Positions 7,837-32,417 of a stretch of 32,826 bases of DNA are shown here, in pieces. Position 1 is the stretch's first letter, and the number at the start of each line of letters is the position of its first letter. The position numbers and the translations under genes are program-made. The notes under the pieces were generated by a model. It was given only the letters and a program-made list of their open reading frames with translations. It was not told where the DNA came from and did no database searches. Source of the DNA: Bacteroidales bacterium (GTDB lineage: Bacteria > Bacteroidota > Bacteroidia > Bacteroidales > VadinHA17); NCBI GenBank assembly GCA_011620595.1, contig WOYX01000062.1, positions 1-32,826 of the forward strand, read 5' to 3'.

Positions 7837-10611
7837 GTGAAGCTTCTGACAGAAATACTGGTAATTGGTTGTCTCATCTCCCTGACTGGCATTCACGCGC
7901 AGACATTACCCCCGATAACTGCTTACACTCCTGAAGATTACAATGCTGATAACCAAAACTGGCAGATTTGCCAGTCCGAGGAAAAATTCATCTATGTAGC
8001 CAACAACAGGGGTTTACTGGAGTTCAACGGATCTGAATGGAATCTGTACCCCTCACCCAATAACACCATTATCAGGTGTGTCAGGGCAATAGGCGACAGG
8101 ATATACACAGGGTGCTACATGGAGTTTGGTTACTGGGTCCGAAACCCATACGGGAAAATGGAATATGTCTCTCTTTTGCCATTTCTTAAGGAGAACCTCA
8201 AGGATGATGACCAGATATGGAGCATTCTTAATCTCGATGAATGGGTTGTCTTTCAGTCAAGTGACAAAATATATTTCTTCAACAGCACCACCGGCAAATT
8301 CAGGATAATTGATCCTGAAATGAATATCTACAGGGCATATAAGATTAAGGATAACATCTATTTCAGTATAAGGAACCAGGGGATCTACCGGATGGAAAAC
8401 GGTGAACCCAGGCTGCTGATTGACGATCCTGAGATCATCAACAAAAGGATAATTAGTATGTTCGGGAATTATGAGCATCTGATCATACTGACCCTTGAAT
8501 CGGGCTTTTACAAGCTGGATGGCAACAGTGCAGAGAAGTGGGATATAGAATCCAACCATTACATTTCTGATGGAAGGGTATTCTGCGGGCTGCAACTGTC
8601 GGACGGAAATTTTATAGTCGGCACCATTTCTGACGGCGTCCTTCATATCAATAGTGAAGGGCAGATTGTTTACAAGCTTGACCAAACAAACGGGCTAAGC
8701 AATAACACAGCGTTATCACTTTTCGAAGACAGTGACCACAACCTGTGGATAGGTTTGGATAACGGAATCAACTGTGCCAACATAACAGCTCGGTAAAGGT
8801 TTTTCATGACTTTGACGGACGGCTTGGAACAGTGTATACTTCTGAAGTATTTGGCGACTGGCTGTATCTGGGAACCAATCAGGGTCTGTACTGCAAAAAG
8901 GTGAACAGCCATGATCCGTTCAGGTTCATTGAGGGTACGTACGGTCAGGTATGGGATCTGTATAATTACAATGATCAGGATTTGCTGTGCGGTCATCATC
9001 TTGGCACCTATATCATCAAACATGATAAAGCCATTCTTATTGATGACAATCCCGGAACCTGGGCCTTCAGGGAGGTGCCAGGCAAGGATGGCTTGCTTGT
9101 TAAAGGCAACTATAACGGTCTCTCCGTTTTGCACAGGGTCTCGGGTAGCTGGAGGCTCAGGAACAGAATCGAGGGGTTCAACAGTTCGGCAAGGTTTTTT
9201 GAGCTCGACAACCGGGGTCAGATCTGGGTAAGCCACGAGTATAAGGGCGTTTACAGGCTTGAAATGAACGACAGTCTGACCGGGACAGCAGAGGTCACCA
9301 TGGAACCGTTTCCTGCAAATCTCAAGAATTCCAGCCTGACGAAATACGGTGGTGACATTCTCTATGCCTGCGAAAAGGGTATATACAGGTATAATGAGAT
9401 AAGCAGCTCATTTACCTATGACAGCCTGCTTAGCCCACTCATCATCAGCGAAGAATATGTTTCAGGAAAGCTGATAGCTGACAAACACGGAAGGTTATGG
9501 GGTTTCTCGAAAGAGAACATTTATTATGCAGCAATAGACCACCTGACCAACAAACCGCAAATTCATTCAATACCAATACCACTTGATCTCAGGAAGGTAA
9601 CACAGAGCTTTGAGAATATTGAACCAATCGCGGATGACACTTATCTTCTGGGCACCGCCAGGTTATCTCACCATAGATCTTCTTGGTATGGGACTGGATG
9701 CTGCTTATCAGATCCACCTTAACTCTGTGACACTACAGGACCTTGACAATAACATCGCCCATATCGAGACCGGGACTCCCGGTGAATTTAAGTTCAAGGG
9801 TGGTATCTTAACCATTAAGTATTCAGTGCCAAACTACAATAAGTACCTGGATGTCAACTATCAGTGCAAACTGGAGGGACACAGCAACCGCTGGAGTGAC
9901 TGGACACCAAAGGCTGTTTCACAATATGAAAACCTCAGCTTTGGCAAATATGTATTCCAGGCGAGGGCAAAAGTTGGCAATAAGCTTACCGATAATATTG
10001 TAACGTATAATTTTGAAGTAACCAGGCCATGGTTTCTGTCCAACATGGCTCTCCTGCTTTACCTGTTGATCCTGGTAATGGCCGGACTTGCAGTTAATAC
10101 TGCGTACAAACGCCACTATGCAAAGAAGCTGAGAAACGAACAACTGGAAAAGGACAAGCTGATTATTGTGTTAAGGAACGAACAGCTTGACAGAGAAATA
10201 GAGACAAAGAATCGCGAGCTGGCTCTGTCAAAGATGAACATTCTTAAAAAGAATGAGTTGCTTAATGAAATAAAAAATGAATTGATCCGGAAAGACAAAA
10301 GCGATAATATAAGTTCAGTTACCAGGCTGATTGACAGGAATCTCAACAACAGAAAAGACTGGAAAATATTTGTCAAGGCCTTTAATGAGGCAGATAAAGG
10401 ATTCATTGACAAGCTGAAAAGTCAACACCCCGATCTTACCCCGAACGATCTGAGGTTTTGTGTCTATCTCAGGATGAATCTCTCTTCCAAGGAGATGGCA
10501 CCTCTTATGAATATCTCTGTCAAGAGTGTCGAAACCCGCAGGTACAGGTTGAGAAAACGGATGAATCTACCACATGAAGAGAGCCTGGTAAACTACATAG
10601 TGGGACTGTGA
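7837..10611 (+). pseudogene. Triple-tyrosine sensor with LuxR-type HTH, split by two frameshifts
   Basis: Corrected, this is a protein of about 924 residues: signal peptide (GTG start at 7837), a periplasmic beta-propeller of reg_prop-type blades (for example HNLWIGLDNGI), a Y_Y_Y domain near its end (YQCKLEGHSNRWSDW), one membrane helix (about 10045-10100), a coiled coil, and a cytoplasmic LuxR-type helix-turn-helix (LSSKEMAPLMNISVKSVE). It lacks kinase and receiver domains, so binding of a glycan fragment outside would act directly on the DNA-binding end. The frame is lost near 8783-8786, where one A is missing from a short A run, and regained near 9655-9660, where one base is extra. The reading on both sides fits the family and the total length is normal. 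It sits upstream of the SusC/SusD remnants and probably controlled them. Confidence 0.85.
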
Positions 10612-27456: not shown

Positions 27457-28200
27457 ATGAAAAACAGCTATCTCAGCTACAGGTTTCGGTTTCTCTGGCT
27501 CGCGGTGTTTGCGGTTGCCATGGGTTTCCTGGAAGCGATTGTGGTGGTTTACCTGAGAGAGCTCTACTACCCTGAAGGTTTCAGCTTTCCCCTGAAGCTC
27601 ATGTCGCCCGATCTTGTCTCTATTGAGTGGATCAGGGAGATCGCCACGCTGGTGATGCTTGCCGGTGTGGGTATCATCGCCGGAAGAAACAATCTCCAGC
27701 GGCTATGGTATGCACTCTTCGCATTCGGTGTATGGGATATCTTCTATTACGTTGCCCTTAAGTTGCTGATCGGGTGGCCTGCCTCCCTTCTCACCTGGGA
27801 CCTGCTGTTTCTCATACCGGCATCGTGGCTGGGGCCGGTGCTCGCCCCGGTGCTGAATTCAGTGACCATGATCATGATGGCCCTGCTGCTGGTGGCAAGA
27901 GAGGAGAACGGTTTCTGTGTGAAGGTTCATCTCACTGACTGGATTCTCATCTTCGGCGGTGCACTGATCATTCTTTACACATACCTGATCGATTACTCCA
28001 AACTCATCATTCAAAGCGGGGTAATGGCACGCGGAAAATCACAGGAGGCGGCAGACCAACTGATGACATTGATAACAAGCTACACACCTGACAATTACAG
28101 GTGGTTTCTCTATATTGTCGGCGAGATACTGATATTGGCTGCCACGGCAGATATCCTGATACGAAGCAGGAAATACCCAAAAACTGAAGCCATTAGTTAA
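27457..28200 (+). CDS. Polytopic membrane protein of unknown function
   Basis: The 247-residue protein is mostly hydrophobic with about six or seven membrane helices, for example FLWLAVFAVAMGFLEAIVVV, ATLVMLAGVGIIAG, LTWDLLFLIPASWLGPVLA, TMIMMALLLVA and WILIFGGALIILYTYLI. Charged and polar residues inside the first helix (MGFLEAIVVVYLREL) and in the YYVALKLLIGWP region may be functionally important. No transporter or enzyme motif is clear, and I do not recognise the family. It is a single gene between the M81 remnant and the convergent asparagine-synthetase-like gene, ending 60 bases from it. The start follows a plausible leader, and the length and composition indicate a genuine intact gene. 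Confidence 0.82.
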   Translation: MKNSYLSYRFRFLWLAVFAVAMGFLEAIVVVYLRELYYPEGFSFPLKLMSPDLVSIEWIREIATLVMLAGVGIIAGRNNLQRLWYALFAFGVWDIFYYVALKLLIGWPASLLTWDLLFLIPASWLGPVLAPVLNSVTMIMMALLLVAREENGFCVKVHLTDWILIFGGALIILYTYLIDYSKLIIQSGVMARGKSQEAADQLMTLITSYTPDNYRWFLYIVGEILILAATADILIRSRKYPKTEAIS

Positions 28201-28260: not shown

Positions 28261-29604
28261 TTAGTCTGTCCCGGGATTTATTTCGGTTCTCCCCATCCAT
28301 GAGAGAGAGAGATTGCTTCCGAAGTGTTCCCTGAAGATGCGGTAATAGAACAGCGCCTCCTTGTCGTTGAGGATCCATCCGTTTGGCAGCACCCGCTCAT
28401 TGAGGAAATCAGTGTCAGAGATAGTCTTATCCGCGATCTCTGCCAGTTTCTGACTCACCCCTGCCCCCTCCCAGAACTTTGCTTTGGGTCTCCAGAGCAC
28501 CTCAGGGGGAAGCAACCCGTCCATGGCCTTTCTGAGTATCCATTTCTCCACTCCGTTGACAATCTTGTATTTGTCGGGGATATCAAATGCAAATTTTTTA
28601 ACCAGTGGATTTGTGAAGACCAGGTGAGCCGTTGTGCCATGTGCCGAGGCACAGCGGTCAACCCGCTGGAGTGCGGTGTTGTGTAATTTTCCTGTTATGC
28701 GGATAAGTTCATCACGCAACATCTCTTCCGGAATTTCCTTCAGGTATTCATATCCTGCAAACAGTTCATCTGCACCTTCGCCTGAGAATATTTCGCTGAC
28801 ATAGTCCGATGCCTTCTCTGCAACAAGGAAATTGAGCACGGATGAACGTACGAGCAGGGTATCAAATGACTCCAGATAATAAATTACATCGGGCAGAATT
28901 CTTACCAGGTCATCTACTGCCACCATGAACTCGTGATGTTCAGCGCCAATGAATTTTGCCATCCCGGATGCAAATTCCAGGTCAGGAGCACCTGGCAGTC
29001 CTGCGGTAAAGGTCTTCAATGCCGGCAGGTATGGGGCGGCCAGTGCGGATATTGCAGCTGAATCCAGTCCTCCGGAGAGCCATGCACCGGTATCGTCAGT
29101 CCTGATGCCAGCTGAGACGGCATTGTCAAGCAGCTCTCTCAGACTTGCTGCAATTGATTCCGGGTTGTCTGATGAGCATGGGAAGCTGGGAGCGGAGGGA
29201 TTGAGATATTCAACAATACCATCGTTCTTTCCCGGGGGGATCTCACTGATATCGCAACTTTCCGGTAAAAGGGCCTTTACCTCGGAGGCGAAGGTGACAT
29301 CTCCGTCACTGTCGCTGCCTTTGTAGAGAGGAGATGCACCCAGCTCATCGCGCGCAAAAAGAAAGTTACCGTTATCAGCTGTTACCTTAGCGTAATGGCC
29401 CGGGCCAACTATATCACCAACATAATTCTCATCGTGATGATTATAAATTGTATTGCATTCCGGATCATTCCAGATTACGCCCATGGTTGTTCCTTCTGTC
29501 TCAAAGATCTTTCTTCTGCTTCGTCCGCGATGACTTATCCGGTCAAGCATCTCAGACACCTCGCTGAATGAATCCTGACGTGCTATTCCTGCTATTCCGG
29601 CCAT
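28261..29604 (-). CDS. Asparagine-synthetase-like amide ligase without glutaminase Cys
   Basis: The 447-residue protein resembles asparagine synthetase B. The C-terminal synthetase domain is complete: PP-loop SGGLDS at residues 177-182, IFSGEGADELFAGYEYL, and late segments GVEKWILRKAMDGLLPPEVLWRPKAKF. It should form an acyl-adenylate and then an amide. The N-terminal domain is degenerate. It starts MAGIAG, so the Cys2 that splits glutamine in true AsnB is Ala, and it is shorter than usual (PP-loop at 177 instead of about 230), without the NGE motif of the glutamine site. It therefore cannot take ammonia from glutamine in the usual way. Beta-lactam and carbapenam synthetases show the same loss and couple an amine of the substrate instead. 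Its start overlaps the preceding cobalamin gene by 13 bases. Confidence 0.88.
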   Translation of the reverse strand: MAGIAGIARQDSFSEVSEMLDRISHRGRSRRKIFETEGTTMGVIWNDPECNTIYNHHDENYVGDIVGPGHYAKVTADNGNFLFARDELGASPLYKGSDSDGDVTFASEVKALLPESCDISEIPPGKNDGIVEYLNPSAPSFPCSSDNPESIAASLRELLDNAVSAGIRTDDTGAWLSGGLDSAAISALAAPYLPALKTFTAGLPGAPDLEFASGMAKFIGAEHHEFMVAVDDLVRILPDVIYYLESFDTLLVRSSVLNFLVAEKASDYVSEIFSGEGADELFAGYEYLKEIPEEMLRDELIRITGKLHNTALQRVDRCASAHGTTAHLVFTNPLVKKFAFDIPDKYKIVNGVEKWILRKAMDGLLPPEVLWRPKAKFWEGAGVSQKLAEIADKTISDTDFLNERVLPNGWILNDKEALFYYRIFREHFGSNLSLSWMGRTEINPGTD

Positions 29605-31232
29605 GACTGCATTACTTTTTCCGTTCTCGTTTTCTCGCTTATTTTTTCACCTGTTGAGGGATCAATGGCGAACCAGGCTCCGTCAATCAGACTTGTGACA
29701 ATATTGCCGCACAGGTATTGATTGCCCCTGAAGTGGGGTGTATCGAGCAGTCCTTTTCTTATGGCATCAGCGAGCAGGTCGGGGTCAGACCATGGATCGT
29801 CACTTCTCTCTTCGCCAAACTTTCCGAGTGCTTCCAGGAGCACCTGCGCTTCCTCCTTCAGCTCATTCTTTCTTGCCTGAATAGCGGGGTTATCAGTAAG
29901 GTCAGGCATACCGTGGAGGGTGTTGTGCAGAACACCGTGGACTATCTCGCAACTTTCTATCAGTTCATCGGGGCAGATGGCATGATCACCTTCGCTGAAG
30001 CCGACGACGTGAAAGATATGAGGGCTGAGGGCAAGGCTTATCACTCCCGACGCTGCCAGCTGGCCCTTAGCCTGGCCGGGATTGGATGAGAAGTGTGCCA
30101 GTCCTGCTCTCACCTCACGCCACACAGTAAAAGTGCCGTCAGAGAGGCTTTCTATCATCTCATTCTTGGCCAGCATTTTAGCAATATCCATCCGGGCTGA
30201 GGTTCCGGGAGGATTATTGAACATATACTGGGATACGTAATCCTTCACCCCTGCTTTTTTTGCATTGTAAGCTGCCAGAAAAGCCATAGCCACAGCAAGT
30301 GAGTCATGAGCTTCGCGGAGGCTCCATTGGTGGGACTCATTGACCTCAACCGGTATTCCCTGCCGGGCATACCATCCCATAACTGACTGGTTCTCCTTTA
30401 TGGCTTCGTTTATCGATCTTTTTGACCTGCCGTCTATGACGTTGTACCAGCATAGGGGTATTGCTCCCCATGCATTATTTATGGTGACAACGCTCATCTC
30501 AGCCCATCTCAGCAGATCACGGGTACCGGAATAGCATCTGACAAGCGGATGGTTGCCGCAGCGTGACCTGCGGTAGATTGCCTCCAGATCTTCGGGTTTC
30601 CTCAGGGGCACACCGCCCGCTCCATCCTGTGCATGGTCCATCTCCTCCGGGTGAAAAAAGTGTTCCTGTGCGTTCTGGTCCGGGCCAATAGATAGAACAT
30701 CAAGCACGCCAGCCATGGCAATCTTCTCAATACCCTCAAGGGTCTCCTCCATGGTAGGCCTGCCAAAGTGATGACGGATCAGCGGATAGGGATATTTTTG
30801 TTTTATCCGTCCGGTCAGGGTATCAGGGAGGATTTCACTCTGATGCTGAGGATTTGATCCCCTCAGGTACTCTCTAATTCTGATTTCGGGCTCGGTACCG
30901 TCGAAGATACGGCTGAAGAGACCGGTTTCCCTTGCCACTGCTGCCACGGGCGGAGTGCCGCCGAAAATCATATGGATACCGGTTAGTCCAGCCCTGCGCA
31001 GAGCCTCACCCAGTTCAGCCAGGAGCTCTTTTGCTGATGCAGGTGTAAGCCGGTAACTCAAGGCTACGATATCAGGTTGTTCCTGCTTTATGATTTTTAC
31101 AAGCCGTGGAACCTCCACTGCGGGGCCGGCAGAGAGAGAGACAAAACCTTCACTCTCTGCAAGAGTAAGAAAGTGATGCAGACCTCCGACATGAACACAG
31201 CTGCCCAGTGCAGCGCCAACTATCTTCTTCAT
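29592..31232 (-). CDS. Single-chain cobalamin-dependent mutase-like protein (glutamate mutase-like)
   Basis: The 546-residue protein has two parts. Residues 1 to about 130 form a B12-binding Rossmann domain: GSCVHVGGLHHF near the start (His14 the lower cobalt ligand, Gly17), then ALSYRL and FGGTPP. The usual DxHxxG is CxHxxG here, with Cys12 in the Asp position. From about residue 150 comes a TIM-barrel-like region with similarity to glutamate mutase component E (methylaspartate mutase), for example KENQSVMGWYARQGIPVEVNESHQW and VSQYMFNNPPGTSARMD. In glutamate mutase the two parts are separate proteins; here the B12 domain comes first in one chain. The expected chemistry is adenosylcobalamin-driven rearrangement of an amino-acid carbon skeleton, but the substrate is not known. 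It is the middle gene of the operon, 18 bases after the dehydrogenase gene. Confidence 0.8.
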   Translation of the reverse strand: MKKIVGAALGSCVHVGGLHHFLTLAESEGFVSLSAGPAVEVPRLVKIIKQEQPDIVALSYRLTPASAKELLAELGEALRRAGLTGIHMIFGGTPPVAAVARETGLFSRIFDGTEPEIRIREYLRGSNPQHQSEILPDTLTGRIKQKYPYPLIRHHFGRPTMEETLEGIEKIAMAGVLDVLSIGPDQNAQEHFFHPEEMDHAQDGAGGVPLRKPEDLEAIYRRSRCGNHPLVRCYSGTRDLLRWAEMSVVTINNAWGAIPLCWYNVIDGRSKRSINEAIKENQSVMGWYARQGIPVEVNESHQWSLREAHDSLAVAMAFLAAYNAKKAGVKDYVSQYMFNNPPGTSARMDIAKMLAKNEMIESLSDGTFTVWREVRAGLAHFSSNPGQAKGQLAASGVISLALSPHIFHVVGFSEGDHAICPDELIESCEIVHGVLHNTLHGMPDLTDNPAIQARKNELKEEAQVLLEALGKFGEERSDDPWSDPDLLADAIRKGLLDTPHFRGNQYLCGNIVTSLIDGAWFAIDPSTGEKISEKTRTEKVMQSWPE

Positions 31233-31250
31233 ACAAGGTAAATATTACAA

Positions 31251-32360
31251 TCACATCCTGGCTTCACCAATGGCAAGAAGCCTCAGGTCTCGCAGGCTCA
31301 TGCCTGCTATCCCCAGATTCTCAACTGTGCGTCCTGCCGCACGGTAATCTTTTGCATTTATGATGGAGCCCATCCTAATGATCGAATCCATCGTATCAGT
31401 ATTGACATTCAGCATATTACCAACGGATGCCATAGGCACAAGGCTGCACGGAATATCCTCTTCAAGATATCTCATCTTCAATGACCTGGGGGCCAGGATA
31501 CCCCTGTAACCCGAATTCTTTTTCATCGATTCATAGAGTGAATGTCCTGTTGTGCTGTATGCCATGTAGAGCCACTCTCTGGCAGTGATGGCTCTTATGC
31601 CCAATGCTTCCGCCACTCTGACACGCTCATCATCGATCCGCTCCAGGATCCTGGCTACGGAAGGCGTCACTCCCTCGTGGTAAAACTGAAAATCAATTTC
31701 ATTTTCGATCCATCCGGCATTCATTACACAAAGGGCCGGATGAAAGACGCTGCCTATATTTTCAAAACTTGTCTTGAAAATGTTGTCTCCGGGAACGAAC
31801 TGAGGGTATATTCTACGCAGTTTTTCAATCACAATGGGAATCAAATGTGCCCTCACAGAAGCTACCGGAATCGAGTGTTTAATCCTGAAGATATGTACCT
31901 GGGAAGGGCCGGAAGCCCTGGAAGCATAGATGAAAGTCTGAGCTTCAGCTATGATGACCTCTGCCGTAACCTTATGCGCAATGAGTACCTGCTTAAACTC
32001 CAGTGCACCCAGGGTTCTGCCCGGATGGAGGACAATAACCTGTCCGTCGACCAGGTGCGGGGCGATCTGTTCAGCTATCCATTTGTGACCGTAAGCAGGA
32101 ACAACAACCATAATCAGCTCAATGCCCCTGATTGCCTCAGCAATATCATTGGTAGCCATATTGAGCTCTCCAAAACCCTCAACCTCCCCGGTGATCTCTA
32201 TCGCTCCCGTTGATCTTACGCCCCAAAGTCTCTCCTTACCCCTGTTGAACAGATTGACCTTATGCCCCATAAGTGCCATGTGGGCAGCCATAGCCATGCC
32301 TCCATGGCCGGCTCCAAGCACGGCAACCTTGCAGCTCTCCTTTGATCTTGTCTTTTGCAT
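31251..32360 (-). CDS. Octopine/nopaline dehydrogenase family protein
   Basis: The 369-residue protein joins a Rossmann domain (KVAVLGAGHGGMAMAAHMALMGH, the GxGxxG dinucleotide loop) to the helical domain of opine dehydrogenases, with the expected catalytic His in ENIGSVFHPALCVMNAGW. Members reductively condense the amino group of an amino acid with a 2-oxo acid using NAD(P)H, giving a secondary amine dicarboxylate (opine). I place the start at the ATG of MQKTRSKESCK, since the frame above it (from 32417) covers the likely promoter and adds only a hydrophobic piece. It is the first gene of a minus-strand operon with a cobalamin mutase-like gene and a Cys-less asparagine-synthetase-like gene, which suggests a biosynthetic and not a catabolic role. 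Confidence 0.87.
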   Translation of the reverse strand: MQKTRSKESCKVAVLGAGHGGMAMAAHMALMGHKVNLFNRGKERLWGVRSTGAIEITGEVEGFGELNMATNDIAEAIRGIELIMVVVPAYGHKWIAEQIAPHLVDGQVIVLHPGRTLGALEFKQVLIAHKVTAEVIIAEAQTFIYASRASGPSQVHIFRIKHSIPVASVRAHLIPIVIEKLRRIYPQFVPGDNIFKTSFENIGSVFHPALCVMNAGWIENEIDFQFYHEGVTPSVARILERIDDERVRVAEALGIRAITAREWLYMAYSTTGHSLYESMKKNSGYRGILAPRSLKMRYLEEDIPCSLVPMASVGNMLNVNTDTMDSIIRMGSIINAKDYRAAGRTVENLGIAGMSLRDLRLLAIGEARM

Positions 32361-32370
32361 GATTCGCTGA

Positions 32371-32393
32371 ATATTGCCTCTCTTTAGCAATAT
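32371..32393. promoter_or_regulatory. Inverted repeat, possible operator of the dehydrogenase operon
   Basis: A perfect 7-bp inverted repeat, ATATTGC (32371-32377) and GCAATAT (32387-32393), is separated by nine bases. One arm coincides with the candidate -7 box, and the whole repeat lies 10 bases upstream of the dehydrogenase start codon. A dimeric regulator bound here would block transcription. The same repeat could instead form a weak hairpin in the leader. Confidence 0.35.
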
Positions 32394-32417
32394 AAGAAAA
32401 ACCACGGAAAAAGCCAA
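32387..32417 (-). promoter_or_regulatory. Candidate promoter of the dehydrogenase-mutase-ligase operon
   Basis: On the minus strand a TTG (plus 32415-32417) is followed after 20 bases by TATATTGC (plus 32387-32394). The spacing is right for a Bacteroidota promoter (TTTG, 19-21 bases, TAnnTTTG), but the -7 box is imperfect. The start codon would be about 20 bases from the transcription start. No cobalamin riboswitch boxes are seen in 32361-32701, although the second gene encodes a B12 protein. Confidence 0.35.

Follow-up and report, generated by a model that had tools for sequence, protein, structure and literature searches.

A gene pair for an opine dehydrogenase and a B12 mutase, shared by bacteria and archaea, and its possible role in c-di-AMP-controlled osmoadaptation

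Introduction

Contig WOYX01000062.1 of a Bacteroidales bacterium (GCA_011620595.1), whose whole 32,826-nt stretch is called the window here, carries on its minus strand the genes for an opine-dehydrogenase-like oxidoreductase (OPD), a single-chain B12 mutase, and an asparagine-synthetase-like ligase (ASN). The core of the module, in bacteria and archaea alike, is the pair of genes for OPD and the B12 mutase, and their adjacency is far beyond chance. An ATP-dependent amide ligase, either ASN or an ATP-grasp enzyme resembling D-alanine-D-alanine ligase (Ddl), is a frequent, not universal, third part. The module is real and conserved and probably important, and the pathway is apparently widespread and undescribed in bacteria and archaea. 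We think it rather likely that the module is a conserved compatible-solute (osmoadaptation) pathway controlled by cyclic di-AMP (c-di-AMP), with the window genes as its Bacteroidota version. The strongest clue to this role is the c-di-AMP riboswitch (RF00379) that precedes the module in many relatives; this switch and the osmotic neighbours in relatives indicate that the metabolite is probably a compatible solute.

The features of the module in the window are as follows.

31251..32360, minus strand: OPD, opine (octopine/nopaline)-dehydrogenase-family NAD(P) oxidoreductase, 369 aa from ATG at 32360
31251-32417, minus strand: longest open reading frame (ORF) of OPD, 388 aa from TTG at 32417
29592..31232, minus strand: B12 mutase, putative single-chain adenosylcobalamin-type radical mutase, 546 aa; PF02310 at 30.0 bits; model with mean predicted local distance difference test (pLDDT) 93.3
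30861..31232, minus strand: B12-binding domain of the mutase, aa 1-124, with the motif C12-x-H14-x-x-G17
29616..30833, minus strand: TIM-barrel catalytic part of the mutase, aa 134-539, with the glutamate-mutase-E fold by VIA-align to 1cb7_B
28261..29604, minus strand: ASN, asparagine-synthetase-like ligase without the nucleophile Cys, 447 aa, MAGIAG start; PF00733 at 3.9e-57

ORF calling finds all three genes open and intact, with 18 bases between OPD and the B12 gene (31233-31250, longest ORFs) and a 13-base overlap of the B12 gene and ASN (29592-29604), as the original prediction, made from the letters alone, had described. The ATG at 32360 is probably the start of OPD, rather than the TTG at 32417, because relatives begin there (369 aa in L011, 368 aa in L013) and taaagagagg lies upstream.

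Spread and joint inheritance of the gene pair

The B12 protein has matches in 8 of 60 related genomes searched (the window's own included), all within the window's genus. The same-genus loci L010-L015 and L016 were read; L007, on a short contig, was left out. In each of the six loci L010-L015 OPD is next to the B12 gene (cut by the contig end in L014 and L015), and ASN comes after them in L010, L012, L014, and L015 and not in L011 and L013. L016 (genome G019) holds operon remnants only, namely the OPD start and two mutase pieces at about 9320-9805, and judging from its DNA the pathway is being lost in this genome.

Named genomes were searched with a profile of six rows; of the 116 relatives found, the best 80 were studied as loci. 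In 78 of the 80, OPD and the B12 gene are neighbours, in 71 by ORF calling and in 7 more by tblastn (L053, L055, L066, L083, L089, L090, and L092, where one of the partners was masked for the ORF caller); the remaining two, L044 and L057, begin at a contig end. All but two of the 71 ORF-called pairs (69) share a strand and are no more than 200 bases apart; the exceptions are L048, with ASN in between, and L074, with its partners on opposite strands. The loci span 14 named phyla, one archaeal, plus 8 that are unassigned: 28 are from Bacillota, 20 from Bacteroidota, 7 from Ignavibacteriota, 3 each from Planctomycetota and Methanobacteriota, and 1 or 2 from each of the others. These labels belong mostly to metagenome bins and some are wrong, as with L039, which is labelled Alphaproteobacteria and is almost identical to the Bacteroidales locus L067. 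With one protein as query, no relative of the mutase was found in viral contigs.

Pairwise distances of OPD and the B12 protein correlate at 0.89 (2485 pairs), and the pair is therefore inherited together; the correlation of ASN with the B12 protein is 0.71 (666 pairs). Where ASN is present the usual order is OPD-B12-ASN; of the 75 loci in which a B12 gene was called, 29 show it, L084 with its generic AsnB being counted among these. Other orders are ASN-B12-OPD (L061, L065), B12-ASN-OPD (L048), and ASN-OPD-B12 (L094). The original prediction had named in advance, as its check, that the genes be found together in other genomes, and in many phyla they are. Its three-gene set stands as regards OPD and the B12 gene and falls as regards ASN as a fixed part, since ASN belongs to 38 of the 80 loci and a Ddl-like ATP-grasp gene occurs within or beside the operon in 6 others.

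The c-di-AMP riboswitch before the module

Rfam scans covered the window and 46 of the 80 loci, and genome-wide RF00379 searches covered the genomes of 78 of the 80, L072 and L074 being covered by the locus scans; for 50 non-Bacillota or unassigned genomes the search used stricter filters that lose weak matches. In 24 of the 80 loci, namely 23 of the 28 Bacillota loci and L066 of unassigned phylum, RF00379 immediately precedes the module, 6-171 bases away from the longest ORF of its first gene (estimated from tblastn for L089 and L092). This first gene is the ATP-grasp gene in three loci with the order ATP-grasp-OPD-B12 (L075, L081, L088) and OPD in the rest. The 28 Bacillota genomes contain 51 copies in total, 25 of them at the module; 24 of these genomes have any RF00379, and 23 of the 24 have one at the module. 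In seven of the 28 (G060, G061, G066, G109, G111, G114, G116) the module copy is the sole one. L094 has one copy before its separate ASN and another before OPD-B12. In the genome of L055, RF00379 occurs elsewhere and the DNA before OPD is cut off.

The leader of L056 comprises a promoter-like site (8619-8647), the aptamer (8671-8802), a terminator-like hairpin (8848-8875), and the OPD start at 8904, and this predicted layout fits the needs of an OFF switch. The leader of L059 has promoter-like site, aptamer, terminator-like hairpin, and OPD in the same order. A hairpin scan of the two leaders found one hairpin in each, compared with 0.3 and 0.2 in shuffled sequences. Passages of PMC9337991 associate high c-di-AMP with the absence of osmotic distress and place a c-di-AMP switch before ablA, a gene for the osmolyte precursor beta-lysine.

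Two further RNA observations concern single loci. L091 has two RF00379 in tandem (8509-8632 and 8772-8898) before OPD-B12, which could sharpen the response. The planctomycete locus L053 has at 8254-8307 an nhaA-I RNA (RF03057, a listed riboswitch, 47.4 bits, gathering 37) about 500 bases before OPD; an ion-related RNA would suit an osmotic role, but the distance is large.

Neighbour genes and the weighing of an osmotic against a cell-wall role

In total, 257 flanking proteins, up to two per side, were scanned: 130 of L017-L058 (mostly non-Bacillota) and 127 of L058-L096 (mostly Bacillota), with the top 25 of 162 families displayed for the first set and the top 25 of 183 for the second. The commonest families in the first set are PF00324 permeases and MscS channels (PF00924) with 5 each; MutS, dihydroorotate dehydrogenase, MarC, and AsnC regulators come next with 4 each, then trehalose-6-phosphate synthase with 3, several of these counts stemming from close relatives. 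In the second set Ddl is commonest with 9, ahead of thioesterase with 7. Seven of 48 loci contain MscS, where whole-genome numbers would lead one to expect 0.37 (P 7e-8), and 5 of 48 contain trehalose-6-phosphate synthase, with 0.08 expected (P 1e-8).

The c-di-AMP regulon, as passages of PMC7266159 and PMC3766115 describe it, takes in both osmotic and cell-wall genes. The same riboswitch would suit a module that makes a peptidoglycan building block or modifier, such as an opine-type compound or an analogue of a D-amino-acid dipeptide, under c-di-AMP control. We regard this cell-wall role as unlikely. It gains from a Ddl-like ATP-grasp gene near the module in 10 loci, four of them with it in the operon (L075, L081, L088, L095), and from D-Ala-D-Ala carboxypeptidase (PF00768), which accounts for 5 of the 257 flanking proteins, the placeable ones all from close Thermoanaerobacter relatives (cluster 17). 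The other cell-wall families in the top-25 tallies are only PBP5_C, itself part of the PF00768 carboxypeptidase, and LytR_cpsA_psr. Moreover, the module occurs in archaea, which are generally known to be without murein, and its usual third gene is ASN rather than the ATP-grasp gene.

The compatible-solute role also has evidence to contend with, beginning with the fact that cell-wall genes too stand under c-di-AMP riboswitches. The Rfam scan found no RF00379 in the window, and none of its ten scanned flanking proteins belongs to an osmotic family, so that an osmotic role there would be by descent only. Among the 52 non-Bacillota or unassigned loci, RF00379 is found at the module only in L066 and not in the other 51. 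It is also missing at the module in 5 of the 28 Bacillota loci (L062, L078, L083, L084, L086); the genomes of L062, L078, L083, and L086 have zero RF00379, and the DNA of L083 and L084 is truncated near the module. In the second, mostly Bacillota set of 127 flanking proteins, osmotic families show no enrichment save 2 trehalose synthases. Lastly, MscS and trehalose synthase were picked for counting post hoc, and the counts are uncorrected for relatedness of the loci (the seven MscS loci represent about four lineages), so that their P values serve only as a guide. All of these points weigh against the osmotic role.

Some neighbours were set aside or are recorded for themselves. Cluster 76 (L030, L035) was considered as a cation antiporter and dropped, as Pfam found nothing. 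PF05552 genes behind the module score 25.7 in L048, above the cut-off of 22, and 20.5 in L061, below it, and are not used as evidence. A typical Ddl gene lies divergently beside the module in Tepidanaerobacter-type genomes (L054, L059, L069, L096), and in six loci (cluster 8: L054, L059, L064, L068, L069, L096) the gene after the B12 gene codes for a small thioesterase of the 4HBT type.

The three enzymes

OPD: The window protein matches PF02317 at 8.1e-46 (156.2 bits, cut-off 30) and, in its Rossmann part, PF01210 at 32.6 bits (cut-off 23.1). The closest solved structure is N-(1-D-carboxylethyl)-L-norvaline dehydrogenase (CENDH, 1bg6; E 5.2e-70), whose H202/D297 align with the catalytic pair His226/Asp321 of OPD in the 388-aa numbering. 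In the family alignment the His is present in 73 of 73 filled rows and the Asp in 74 of 75. By family cut-offs and predicted catalytic residues OPD belongs to the opine dehydrogenase family, as the original prediction had labelled it.

B12 mutase: Pfam gives the B12-binding domain PF02310 just below its cut-off of 32.1 bits and a chance-level FliG_M match in the window protein, and the nearest solved relatives of the N-terminus are small corrinoid proteins. PF02310 is matched by 80 of 81 family members, and 33 of 81 match PF06368 with E no higher than 0.1 (3.7e-09 for the strongest). No PF06368 match at E 0.1 is seen in the window mutase, and a PF06368 search of the window's own genome found none at E 0.001. 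The protein is called a mutase because of these 33 members and the fold search; Pfam alone does not call the window protein so. The AlphaFold model was built on 81 sequences and replaced an earlier model from 6 sequences (pLDDT 43.7). Foldseek ranks glutamate mutase E first for the model (E 1.3e-16), and VIA-align superposes it on glutamate mutase E (1cb7_B) with Z 32.9 and a root-mean-square deviation of 3.1 over 375 aligned residues, followed by lysine 5,6-/ornithine 4,5-aminomutase (Z 26.5-30.3) and then methylmalonyl-CoA mutase (up to 22.2). In the C12-x-H14-x-x-G17 motif, the residue in the place of the Asp of DxHxxG is Cys in 77 of 81 rows, Asp in 3, and a gap in 1, and the presumed cobalt ligand H14 is His in all 80 filled rows. 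The B12 domain shows no invariant Lys for binding pyridoxal phosphate (PLP); within aa 1-134 the mostly-Lys positions are only 2 (54/81) and 75 (48/81).

A profile alignment to true MutE (L105-L107) is collinear but weak (E 0.0018, probability 14.7%). It pairs R66 with H155, R100 with a gap, and R149 with Y234, and also leaves Glu171 unmatched, these being the positions that we take to form the glutamate-binding Arg claw and its Glu in glutamate mutase. Six Arg are invariant in the 81 rows (R153, R211, R232, R269, R306, R375), and R153 and R232 lie two places off the claw positions in this weak alignment. The mutase has the fold of glutamate mutase in the model, apparently without its glutamate-binding arginines. 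Because those arginines are unmatched and other Arg are invariant, the enzyme may be a carbon-skeleton mutase for a larger, acidic substrate, for example an opine. The original prediction of a single-chain mutase like glutamate mutase is upheld in its fold and apparently not in its glutamate-binding arginines, for which reason the conversion of glutamate to 3-methylaspartate that it invoked is not supported.

The fold also suits a catabolic route, in which OPD would work oxidatively, its substrate being an opine or an N-alkyl amino acid, and a glutamate-type fermentation would be fed by the mutase; sigma-54/PAS regulators, of the amino-acid-fermentation kind by sequence label, occur in 6 loci (cluster 7). 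No ORF of the 1165 in the 80 loci matches, at E 1e-5, the genes read as MutL-like or methylaspartase beside true MutE. In addition, an ATP-consuming amide ligase suits synthesis, and a c-di-AMP switch is not a substrate-induction system, so that catabolism is quite improbable.

ASN: The Cys-less asparagine-synthetase-like ligase of the original prediction is borne out by PF00733 and the MAGIAG start, where the N-terminal Cys nucleophile is missing; PF13537 (3.7e-07, residues 54-113) marks a remnant of the glutaminase domain. The nearest solved structure is asparagine synthetase B, 1ct9 (1.7e-48), and the protein stays below the AsnB profiles PRK09431 (303.5, cut-off 499) and TIGR01536 (195.6, cut-off 267.1). 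Among 37 ASN rows, 28 are without the Cys and 9 have it, one of the 9 being the generic AsnB of L084 and the others the module ASNs of L037, L046, L048, L056, L058, L060, L063, and L094. The window ASN lies within a Cys-less clade of 26 rows (support 100, starred); the other Cys-less rows are L050, L086, and L092. The module ASNs, 37 rows with that of the window included, cluster together in the midpoint-rooted tree (SH-aLRT 92, not starred) and are separate from 11 paralogues (11 of 13 used; L122 and L131 left out). The canonical AsnB of the window's own genome, with Cys (L098), sits among the paralogues, with which L084 also groups. The ancestor of the module ASN was probably glutamine-dependent, which would indicate ammonia as the donor and a primary amide as the product.

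The synthetase domain retains the SGGLD loop, the Glu of SGEG, and the active-site Lys. The aspartate-site columns, presumably Thr322, Thr323, and Asp384 of E. coli AsnB, are altered, with TT replaced by xL and D384 by A, N, L, or others. The Glu of SGEG is seen in the window (FSGEGADE) and in the 13 other module rows displayed, and we take this to be the place of the Tyr in the Tyr-Glu dyad of beta-lactam synthetase. Beta-lactam closure by ASN was rejected on account of this Glu, and the beta-lactam-synthetase type of ligase suggested by the original prediction finds no support. The Glu bears equally on the idea of a specialised metabolite, either beta-lactam or antibiotic-like or an opine-built metallophore, which is very unlikely. 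This idea draws on the facts that Cys-less ASN relatives close beta-lactams and that opine dehydrogenases in some bacteria build metallophores. The 25 commonest flanking families of each tally include no nonribosomal peptide synthetase or metallophore-uptake family, and a module spread over so many phyla, with OPD and the B12 gene inherited jointly (0.89), resembles core metabolism.

At 42 of the 80 loci, some of which are truncated by a contig end, ASN is unseen; the 38 loci with it are the 37-locus cluster minus the generic L084, plus L041 (partial) and L055. As a member of a fixed core it is ruled out, being absent from the locus in the same-genus L011 and L013 and not seen in those 42. The Ddl-like ATP-grasp gene takes its place within the operon in four loci and lies upstream in L082 and L085; that of L075 and L095 was checked by Pfam scan. 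A search for ASN elsewhere in 24 genomes without it at the locus returned 30 loci, of which 12 were read (L151 and L174 being one gene), and the module ASN motif is in none of the 12. Among them, L149-L151 are AsnB, L154-L155 are generic AsnB, and L152 is nearest to AsnB. The matches L159 and L164 are distant and probably PurF-type, and L156-L158 of archaeal genomes are likewise distant.

Proposed pathway

In the proposed compatible-solute pathway, osmotic stress would lower c-di-AMP and the switch would then permit transcription of the module. OPD would reductively couple an amino acid and a 2-oxo acid to an opine, whose carbon skeleton the adenosylcobalamin mutase would rearrange by a radical shift like that of glutamate mutase. 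ASN would adenylate a carboxylate and convert it to an amide, reducing the charge of the product, with ammonia from glutamine in the Cys-containing relatives and free ammonia or another amine in the Cys-less window ASN. The product would be a metabolically inert, low-charge compatible solute. A portion of PMC1224877 presents two uncharged amino-acid osmolytes, both amides, that mask their charges. As a guess at the chemistry, and a long shot, an N-(1-carboxyalkyl)glutamate may be rearranged to an N-(1-carboxyalkyl)-3-methylaspartate and this converted to its beta-amide, an N-substituted 3-methylasparagine. The wider proposal, tentative and somewhat short of an even chance, is an undescribed class of compatible solutes that anaerobes of many bacterial and archaeal phyla would use and, where the riboswitch is present, would turn on as c-di-AMP falls. 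An opine dehydrogenase would act first in their synthesis, then a new single-chain B12 mutase on the opine itself, and the product would often be amidated.

The best reading in outline is still the one originally predicted, a small pathway in which a dehydrogenase, a radical mutase, and an ATP-dependent amide ligase act in biosynthesis, and the earlier statement that no pathway with these parts is described agrees with the open literature, where none was found. The search of that literature returned no paper on the gene set; the primary ydaO/c-di-AMP riboswitch papers lay beyond its reach and may list the operon. In passages of PMC4374699, potassium, proline, and betaine are discussed for Tepidanaerobacter acetatoxydans with no mention of "opine" or "glutamate mutase", and in passages of PMC10787698 on metagenomic opine dehydrogenases neither "operon" nor "genomic context" occurs.

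If the proposal is true, the module would to our knowledge be the first case of a B12 enzyme in osmolyte synthesis and of a B12 mutase with an opine as substrate. Many anaerobes, among them thermophiles like Thermoanaerobacter and a genus from biogas, Tepidanaerobacter, would use a solute that nobody has sought, and a nameless B12 mutase family would gain a function. It would also explain a main c-di-AMP riboswitch target in the genomes concerned, including the seven in which it is the sole one. The chemistry would then be directly testable, with regulator, enzymes, and cultured hosts at hand.

Other features of the window

The genes flanking the module in the window belong to GH95, two serine hydrolases (PF00144), amidohydrolase, ROK, MFS, SIS, URO-D, and patatin families. 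A 247-aa membrane protein (27457-28200) has no Pfam or NCBIfam match at E 0.1 and is kept beside the module within the genus (cluster 23: L017, L018, L020, L028). A candidate cis-regulatory RNA of the DUF805b family (RF02914, 42.1 bits, gathering 35.6) lies at 2623-2655.

Comparison with known systems

Glutamate mutase (GlmE/GlmS, PF06368): The barrel fold is common to this enzyme and the module mutase, and no PLP lysine is seen. In contrast to glutamate mutase, the module mutase is one chain with an N-terminal B12 domain, has 14% identity to it, and has no fermentation genes alongside.

D-ornithine 4,5- and lysine 5,6-aminomutase: These belong to the same fold class as the module mutase, and D-ornithine 4,5-aminomutase likewise has barrel and B12 domain in one chain (B12 domain at 604-740 of 3kow_A). 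The B12 domain is at the N-end in the module mutase and at the C-end in the aminomutases, and the module mutase lacks the conserved Lys of that domain for PLP.

CENDH and octopine dehydrogenases: OPD shares their family and catalytic His/Asp pair and differs in being paired with a B12 mutase.

Asparagine synthetase B and beta-lactam/carbapenam synthetases: The ATP-dependent synthetase domain is common to these and ASN. Compared with AsnB, the window ASN is without the Cys and has changed aspartate-site columns; compared with beta-lactam synthetase, it is without the Tyr.

Pyrrolysine PylB/PylC/PylD: The three-step logic of this pathway is alike, with a glutamate-mutase-like rearrangement, an amide ligase, and a dehydrogenase. 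Its mutase (radical SAM) and dehydrogenase families are unrelated to those of the module, so that the likeness is one of logic and homology is not claimed.

N-acetylglutaminylglutamine amide (NAGGN) and beta-lysine pathways: NAGGN is an amino-acid-derived solute whose amide is made by an asparagine-synthetase relative (TIGR03104), as proposed for the module, and ASN scores 87.9 against that profile (cut-off 570.1). The beta-lysine pathway resembles the module in the c-di-AMP control of ablA that passages of PMC9337991 describe. In contrast to both, the module uses other enzymes, with an opine coupling and a B12 radical step.

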